Source: Phascolarctobacterium sp. (GTDB lineage Bacteria; Bacillota; Negativicutes; Acidaminococcales; Acidaminococcaceae). Taken from it: 64,000 nucleotides of DNA. The notes under the pieces are model-generated. The model saw only the letters and a program-made list of their open reading frames with translations, did no database searches and was not told the origin of the DNA. The position numbers and the translations under genes are program-made. How positions within the stretch are numbered: the stretch's first letter is position 1; each line of letters begins with the position of its first letter. Location: contig NZ_JAUNOQ010000003.1 of NCBI RefSeq assembly GCF_030531065.1, positions 1-64,000 on the forward strand, given 5' to 3'. Positions 33,242-34,751 of this stretch are shown one piece after another.

Positions 33242-33274
33242 TATTACTATCGTTTTATGAAAGAAGGTTGGTTC

Positions 33275-34303
33275 ATGCAATTTTTCCAAAAGAATTTTAA
33301 AGGCATTCTGCTTTGCTTACTTATTTCTATACCCTGCTGGTTCCTGGGCAAAATTTTCCCGCTGGTGGGCGGCCCGGTCTTCGCCATCCTCGCGGGAATG
33401 CTCATCACGCTGTTTATTAAAAATAAAACGCCTCTGCAAAGCGGCGTAAATTTCGTTTCCAAAAAAATTCTGCAATATGCGGTTATTTTATTGGGCTTCG
33501 GTTTGAATTTATCCGTCGTCCTGCAAACAGGCAAGCAATCGCTGCCCATCATTATTACGACCATCGCCACCTCGCTCGTTATCGCCTGGGCGCTGCACAA
33601 GCTGCTGCGCATCCCCGGCAAAATTTCCACGCTCGTTGGCGTGGGTTCCTCCATTTGCGGCGGTTCGGCAGTAGCGGCTACGGCTCCCGTTATCAAAGCC
33701 AACGACGAAGAAGTAGCGCAGGCCATCTCCGTCATTTTCTTTTTCAATATGGTGGCCGCGCTCTGCTTCCCGACTTTGGGAATGCTGGTGGGTTTTTCTA
33801 CCGGCAGCGGCGAAGCCTTCGGCATTTTTGCCGGCACGGCGGTCAACGACACTTCGTCCGTCACGGCGGCAGCTGCGACCTGGGATTCCATGCACCACCT
33901 CGGCTCGGCGACGCTGGATAAAGCCGTCACCGTAAAATTGACGCGCACGCTGGCGATTATCCCCATCACCATGGCGCTGGCCTGTCTGGCGGCGAAGGGC
34001 GGGCAAAGCGACGGGCAAAAATTCAGCGTCAAAAGCGTCTTTCCGTTTTTCATAATTTATTTCGTACTGGCTTCTTTAATTACTACCGTAGCTTTAAATA
34101 TGGGCGTCGCCAACGAAGCCTTCACCCCGCTAAAGAACCTGAGCAAATTTTTTATAATTATGTCCATGAGCGCCATCGGGCTGAATACAAACATCATTAA
34201 GCTGATTAAAACGGGCGGCAAGCCCATCCTCATGGGTTTCTGTTGCTGGGTCGGCATCACGTTCGTCAGCCTTGTCATGCAGCATTGCCTGGGACTGTGG
34301 TAA
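33275..34303 (+). CDS. YeiH/UPF0324 family putative sulfate exporter
   Basis: The 342-residue membrane protein has about ten spans and the family landmarks [19 protein letters not shown] near 125, [20 protein letters not shown] near 190 and a conserved [11 protein letters not shown] near 300. YeiH-type proteins are annotated as sulfate or taurine-derived anion exporters on limited evidence. ATG 33275 is preferred since GAAGGTTGG precedes it; ATG 33257 has no ribosome site. Confidence 0.88.
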
Positions 34304-34317
34304 AAGGCGTAGGAAAT

Positions 34318-34438
34318 TTGACTTTTTGCTTTCGCCTTGCTATAATATAAATACAAAGAGACGCTACCGATAAGCGGTTGTCCCTTAAACTTTAGTTAAA
34401 AATAACCGCAAGTTTCCGAGGCTCGGCGGTTATTTTTT
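34318..34438 (+). ncRNA. Small RNA 1, antitoxin-like, with its promoter
   Basis: A strong promoter TTGACT (34318-34323), 17 bp, TATAAT (34341-34346) leads within about 90 nt to a terminator, AAATAACCGC (34400-34409) with GCGGTTATTT (34426-34435) and a T run. No ORF lies between. The design (5' hairpin, small AT-rich hairpin, GC terminator) copies small RNA 2 nearby. The opposite strand could encode the tail KNNRR seen in holin-like toxins, so this may be an antitoxin whose toxin has decayed. Confidence 0.6.
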
Positions 34439-34478
34439 TGCGTTTTTGCCAAAAGCATATTATGCTTTATTGAACACA

Positions 34479-34603
34479 TTGACTATTTTTTAATTAAGCC
34501 TTATAATAAAGGAAGAGATAGCCGACCGTGGGAAGTCAGCTCTCCCCTTCTAACTTAAAAAGTTGACGGAAGACCGCTTAACCGCACGTTAGGCGGTTTT
34601 TCT
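34479..34603 (+). ncRNA. Small RNA 2, type I antitoxin, with its promoter
   Basis: TTGACT (34479-34484), 17-bp spacer, TATAAT (34502-34507), then about 90 nt ending in a terminator AACCGC/GCGGTT (34580-34598) and T run. The transcript converges on the toxin gene and shares its terminator, so the two RNAs overlap at their 3' ends. AAGTCAGCT (34533-34541) is also exactly complementary to AGCTGACTT in the toxin mRNA 5' region (34730-34738). This matches antisense RNAs of RatA/SR4 type. Confidence 0.72.
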
Positions 34604-34607
34604 CATT

Positions 34608-34691
34608 TTATCGCGGACGATTAAACGAGAGAATGAGGACTACTAACGTGGCAAAACTTATCATCAACGACAAGGCTTCTGCAACCGTCAT
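34608..34691 (-). CDS. Holin-like type I toxin, 27 residues
   Basis: MTVAEALSLMISFATLVVLI plus LSFNRPR is a single hydrophobic span with a short basic tail. It closely follows the pattern of Firmicute putative holin-like toxins (MTVxEALxLMIxFxxLV). GGGGGTG lies five bases upstream, next to a hairpin CTACC-TACG-GGTAG that could hide the ribosome site. The gene has a strong own promoter and a convergent antisense RNA. Expected to insert in the inner membrane when unrepressed. Toxicity is inferred from the family. Confidence 0.8.
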   Translation of the reverse strand: MTVAEALSLMISFATLVVLILSFNRPR

Positions 34692-34751
34692 GCCATCACC
34701 CCCTACCCGTAGGTAGTAGGAAAACCGACAAGTCAGCTATCTCTGAAAACC

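Follow-up and report, generated by a model that had tools for sequence, protein, structure and literature searches.

Loci at which a type I antitoxin RNA outlives its toxin have been described before: at zor/orz of Escherichia coli, about 30% of the genomes have orz alone and keep a fragment of the zor toxin transcript, and the orphan orz RNA is expressed in MG1655 (PMC11264685). The RNA that we describe here, which we refer to as "RNA1", is located in a stretch of 64,000 nucleotides ("the window") from a Phascolarctobacterium sp. genome, and is a new case of this known phenomenon: as in the orz-only loci, the promoter and the antitoxin RNA gene are retained, the toxin ORF is lost, and part of the toxin transcript is still encoded. 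The two cases differ in the leftover, which consists of 27-29 nt of the toxin 5' UTR at the orz-only loci (PMC11264685) and of toxin 3' codons at the RNA1 locus; their RNAs and toxins are unrelated, and the bacterial phyla are different.

The arrangement of the RNA1 family is also found in other systems. With par/Fst of the Enterococcus plasmid pAD1 (Fst/Ldr family; PMC7472228), the RNA1 loci share convergent promoters, a bidirectional terminator between the convergent genes, a small membrane peptide and leader structures able to hide the Shine-Dalgarno sequence; however, par/Fst has direct repeats and RNAs that are complementary near their 5' ends (PMC7472228), whereas the 5' copies of the RNA1 loci are same-sense, i.e. 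inverted repeats, in 33 of 33 loci, and the RNA1-family toxins have no match to Fst/Ldr toxins in Pfam or NCBIfam. In Hol_Tox (PF16935), TxpA/RatA and BsrG/SR4, as in the RNA1 family, a short hydrophobic toxin is convergent with a 3'-overlapping antisense RNA, and some distant Clostridia members of the RNA1 family face weakly Hol_Tox-like peptides (20-22 bits, against a cut-off of 23.3); the Phascolarctobacterium toxins that face the family differ in having no Hol_Tox match (0 of 5 with PF16935 in the own genome), and the antitoxin 5' element is distinct. The type I modules of Clostridioides difficile (CD2517.1-RCd8 and others; PMC6563280) are, by their description, similar to the RNA1 family in the convergent, overlapping toxin and antisense RNA, the Lys-rich C-terminus, the many copies and the phage-borne copies.

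RNA1 very probably belongs to a type I toxin-antitoxin locus of which the antitoxin has survived and the toxin has been cut down to its tail (Table 1). The initial annotation had pointed to a strong promoter-terminator unit of about 90 nt, located about 70 bp upstream of a second one, and both the unit and the spacing are borne out: the promoter matches the consensus at 11 of 12 positions, with a TG preceding the -10 box, and is followed on the plus strand by an RNA gene of about 85 nt with a terminator; the end of RNA1 lies 40 bp from the promoter of the downstream RNA, which we refer to as "RNA2". A stretch of 700 bp contains three promoter-like sites, where 0.9 are expected. The predicted fold of RNA1 has a 5' hairpin and a terminator stem of 13 bp (z = -2.5); one terminator arm ends in an A-tract and the other in a T-tract, which makes termination possible from both sides. 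The product of the upstream membrane-protein gene is presumably a relative of the YeiH/UPF0324 family.

Table 1. Features at and around the RNA1 locus (positions in the window).
Feature	Position	Strand	Remark
Upstream membrane-protein gene	33257-34303	+	RNA1 unit starts 15 bp past its stop
RNA1 promoter, TTGACT-17-TATAAT	34318-34346	+	Promoters of L001-L005 can be aligned
RNA1, orphan antitoxin RNA	34352-34439	+	Matched by covariance models R1 and R2
RNA1 5' hairpin element, GACGCTACCGATAAGCGGTTGTCC	34360-34383	+	Conserved in aligned copies
Bidirectional terminator, AAAAATAACCGC..GGCGGTTATTTTTTT	34396-34439	+	Opposite strand gives the KK-stop codons of the toxin
Toxin 3' remnant, VFNKA*YAFGKNAKK*	34430-34477	-	Frame common to relatives
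RNA2 promoter	34479-34507	+	Junction with toxin remnant; Hol_Tox cassette homology begins here
RNA2, putative antitoxin of the intact Hol_Tox neighbour	34512-34604	+	RNA family different from RNA1
Hol_Tox toxin ORF, MTVAEALSLMISFATLVVLILSFNRPR	34608-34691	-	Pfam PF16935, 33.6 bits, E 3.6e-8

A BLAST search with the unit, which preceded the covariance models, has revealed seven paralogs of RNA1 in the own genome (identity 75-83%); the resulting eight copies are dispersed in unrelated contexts, and most of them face toxins. Opposite five copies (L002, L004, L005, L006 and L008) are located genes of hydrophobic peptides of 29-33 aa that end at the same place, with the TAA stop codon sitting within the shared terminator; the ORFs facing L002, L005, L006 and L008 are intact (MDIHAVLELLLVVIASISLGLSIRDKHKK, MNILEILALLSLVIACISLGYMIGRNAKK, MSVLDVIALLSFGLACFKLGYTIGRNAKK and MDIDTMIRLLNLAIKIIEIILSVVQNAKK), and the ORF at L004 has ATA where the ATG start is expected. 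No toxin ORF has been found opposite the RNA at L003, L007 and the window copy. A profile search of the genome detects four toxins, each of them opposite an RNA1-family RNA, but three of the eight RNAs have no facing toxin, an asymmetry that is expected if the loss of the toxin is tolerated and the loss of the antitoxin is not.

Two of the paralogous sites have features of their own. L007 and L008 (G000:C19:1585-2161) form a true tandem pair, with the toxin-less copy located 484 bp past the intact toxin locus; their upstream DNA is near-identical, which points to a duplication after which one toxin was lost. At L002 (G000:C19:114822-114990), the toxin ORF is intact, and no leader element, clear Shine-Dalgarno sequence or promoter is located upstream; this toxin is probably silent, a decay intermediate.

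At the window copy, the remnant listed in Table 1 is all that is left of the toxin gene, and it is interrupted by an internal stop codon at 34460-34462; the start, the promoter, the leader and the first half of the toxin are missing, and a search for the toxin leader element at this copy has found none. The toxin tails of relatives read FKAGYLVG[RK]NAKK* at the matching position; the congeneric toxins MSVLDVVAILSFGLGRFKAGYLVGKNAKK (locus L106) and MSVLEVIALLSFGLACFKAGYLVGRNAKK (locus L107) have the C-terminal ends FKAGYLVGRNAKK and FKAGYLVGKNAKK. In a fixed register with the intact toxin of L106, 17 of the 26 bases past the terminator are identical (P = 0.00025, relative to random segments of the window); a protein profile search of the window for the remnant, which is a short fragment, was not significant (E 1.5). 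A toxin tail, although shorter, has also been kept at the orphans L003 and L007.

The earlier proposal that a toxin was lost here, with its tail left behind, agrees with these comparisons, as the paralogs and relatives bear intact toxins at exactly that place; the intact toxin opposite relatives of RNA1 that the initial annotation had suggested looking for is present in the paralogs and in the congeneric loci L106 and L107. As for the proposed tail, LLAKTQKNNRR, a minus-strand ORF (MCSIKHNMLLAKTQKNNRR...) is present at 34396-34479, but that frame is the wrong one, and we have dropped it for the frame common to the relatives, which ends in FNKA*YAFGKNAKK*. The description of the lost toxin as holin-like is not supported, as the paralogous toxins, like the other Phascolarctobacterium peptides that face the RNA, have no match in Pfam or NCBIfam and no convincing one in PHROGs. 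The persistence of the RNA, on the other hand, fits, with the bit score, the promoter, the hairpin and the terminator being equal to those of loci with a toxin.

The Hol_Tox antitoxin cassettes of the genome are homologous to one another from the -35 box of RNA2 (34479) onwards, i.e. a Hol_Tox/antitoxin cassette abuts the toxin remnant. A clean insertion of this cassette into the toxin gene has been ruled out: the far side of the cassette has no toxin leader element, which argues for deletion or replacement. From the paralogs and the congeners, we infer that the toxin of the window locus was deleted.

At the intact copies, the toxin and antitoxin transcripts would be convergent and would end at one bidirectional terminator that is common to both; the toxin mRNA would encode a putatively toxic membrane peptide of 20-40 aa with Lys residues at its end and its stop codon within the terminator, and the antitoxin RNA of about 90 nt, being complementary to the 3' end of the toxin mRNA, would block the expression of the toxin. 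The two RNAs may pair through kissing terminator loops, as in par/Fst (PMC7472228). The window locus has lost the toxin promoter, the leader and the first half of the toxin; about 14 codons, interrupted by an in-frame stop, remain next to the Hol_Tox cassette, while the RNA gene has kept its promoter, hairpin and terminator.

A first covariance model, built from ten RNA1 copies, has given about 100 matches, in 27 of 59 Acidaminococcaceae genomes; the second, built from 75 copies with the window copy among them, has matches in 176 of the 380 Negativicutes genomes searched, which represent 57 of 102 genera (E up to 1e-4), and gives strong matches in several Clostridia genomes. One genome can hold as many as about a dozen copies. 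A Clostridia MAG (G399, the genome of locus L088) has 18 matches in 1.9 Mb. Changes on both sides occur in 18 of the 24 base pairs, with 93% of the cells paired, in an alignment that was itself fitted to the structure. Rfam has no match to the family at gathering or relaxed thresholds, with STnc240 reaching 27.9 bits on the minus strand, far under its cut-off of 55, and a search of open-access papers has given no report of it; the RNA/toxin family appears to be uncatalogued in the libraries and open-access papers searched.

In spot checks across Negativicutes and Clostridia, short hydrophobic ORFs are located opposite most of the RNAs, and the peptides are diverse, of membrane type and 20-40 aa long. 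At 69 of 89 Acidaminococcaceae loci, a hydrophobic ORF of 24-46 codons, opposite and overlapping the RNA, ends at the terminator, as happens in 2.7% of trials after shuffling of the downstream DNA; the antisense complementarity is provided by the overlap across the terminator, including the toxin stop codon, which is formed by the terminator itself and has a near-constant offset. The toxin leader is conserved in most intact copies and comprises a -10 box, GGTGCTACCATAACGGTAGGC, GGTTAGCCCTCC, a GGAGGG/CCCTCC hairpin and a Shine-Dalgarno sequence. The remaining loci of the 89, about one fifth of the antitoxins, look orphaned, their toxins apparently lost; toxin 3' tails of varied length persist at the orphans L109, L116, L154, L171, L181 and L201.

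The cassette also occurs on IMG/VR contigs that are classed as viral (L218, L219, L222-L225, L229-L232, L234 and L235), where several peptides are intact, e.g. MSIVDFIAVVSFGLTCFGLGYTFGKDNNKPQK; phages or prophages thus carry the family. In L266-L276 (Clostridia, Faecalibacillus), the antitoxin RNA scaffold faces very different peptides, some of them Hol_Tox-like, which suggests that toxins may be replaced on a conserved RNA chassis.

At all 33 loci compared, the toxin and antitoxin RNAs begin near-identically in the same sense (similarity 13.7, versus 7.2 for antisense), and partners from one locus match more closely than RNAs from different loci in a genome (permutation test, 0 of 20000); the predicted pairing of the matched regions shows no gain over shuffled sequence. 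Candidate explanations are an exchange of arms between hairpins, a common binding partner or gene conversion. In the window (34510-34740), RNA2 and the Hol_Tox toxin mRNA likewise both start with GAGATAGC[CT]GAC in the same sense, as in the RNA1 family. A much broader reading, to which we give a rather low probability, is that these loci represent a Firmicutes-wide type I chassis that is unlisted in the libraries searched, with a conserved RNA, interchangeable membrane peptides and co-varying, near-identical 5' ends, whose orphans would police paralogous toxins in trans.

Two alternatives dispute the identity of RNA1. In line with the tandem locus suggested by the initial annotation, RNA1 and RNA2 could have arisen by duplication of a single Hol_Tox locus, but this is quite improbable. 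The hairpin order of the two RNAs was said to be the same, and their broad layout is indeed alike, with a 5' structure, a spacer and a terminator, but RNA2 has a small additional middle hairpin; with the RNA1-family model, RNA2 reaches 16.5 bits (E 0.038 over the window), a weak similarity, against 75.5 bits for RNA1 with model R2 (the window copy being among its training sequences), i.e. these are different RNA families. The genome holds two distinct sets of paralogs, 8 of RNA1 type and about 10 of RNA2 type, whose conserved 5' elements are unlike, and the toxins facing the RNA1 paralogs are not Hol_Tox by Pfam. A recent duplication is contradicted by these separate families; a distant common origin is possible. 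The same genome (2.4 Mb) has 11 Hol_Tox genes above the Pfam cut-off, an unusual load of type I toxins; 2 of the 11 have an internal stop, and two are located 356 bp apart on contig C25. The short distance between the YeiH-like gene and the RNA1 unit could instead suggest that RNA1 is a small RNA of another kind, or that it is the attenuated 3' end of that gene, with a chance match of the antisense ORF; this we consider the least credible reading of all, given the strong promoter of RNA1 itself and the eight dispersed, mostly toxin-facing copies. In other Phascolarctobacterium, the orthologs of the YeiH-like gene are not directly followed by RNA1, and the RNA is wholly absent from the orthologous sites in three of them.

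If RNA1 is the antitoxin half of a truncated locus, it may still be inert or active, and by default we take it for a relic or a spare antitoxin. We lean towards a non-functional relic, of which the toxin loss is recent and the erosion has not yet begun: this is a known fate of antitoxins once the toxin is lost, and the six orphans with tails of varied length resemble a decay series. The orphan RNAs score as high as the toxin-bearing copies (88.9, 94.6 and 93.5 bits, against 78.6-96.6 bits with a toxin ORF), which speaks against a relic, although with so few sequences recent loss and selection are inseparable. Retention of RNA1 for the silencing of paralogous toxin mRNAs in trans, as an anti-addiction or spare antitoxin, is rather doubtful, even though its promoter, hairpin and terminator have no decay and about one fifth of the family's loci are orphaned. 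The terminator loops vary between paralogs and have their strongest predicted pairing with the cognate partner, which suggests kissing loops; the likeliest target in trans would be the L006 toxin (G000:C9:116885-116971), whose loop is predicted to pair with that of RNA1 at -16.8 kcal/mol, versus -6.9 when shuffled (P = 0.002, seven targets tried), the pairing with the other toxin loops of the genome being at background. However, the L006 toxin loop is predicted to pair much more strongly with its own antitoxin (-31.7 kcal/mol), and the likeness of the RNA1 and L006 loops may reflect recent common descent alone. Between the antitoxin 5' domain and the toxin leader or its Shine-Dalgarno sequence, the predicted pairing sites are inconsistent among loci and at the level of dinucleotide-shuffled leaders (mean z -0.6).

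Taken alone, the window locus adds a modest example to the known cases of antitoxins that outlive their toxins. The larger yield is an RNA family that Rfam lacks and that occurs in some Clostridia and in about half of the Negativicutes genomes searched; the short membrane peptides opposite its members are not covered by Pfam or NCBIfam, and the family thus marks many unannotated putative toxin genes. The matching 5' ends of the toxin and antitoxin RNAs are a concrete puzzle: if the chassis reading were true, recognition would go beyond simple antisense pairing, through hairpins that swap arms or through competition of the two RNAs for one target, and would let retained orphan antitoxins police paralogous toxins in trans. 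With its intact, start-less, truncated and orphan copies, the RNA1 family offers a natural series for studying the persistence of antitoxin RNAs.
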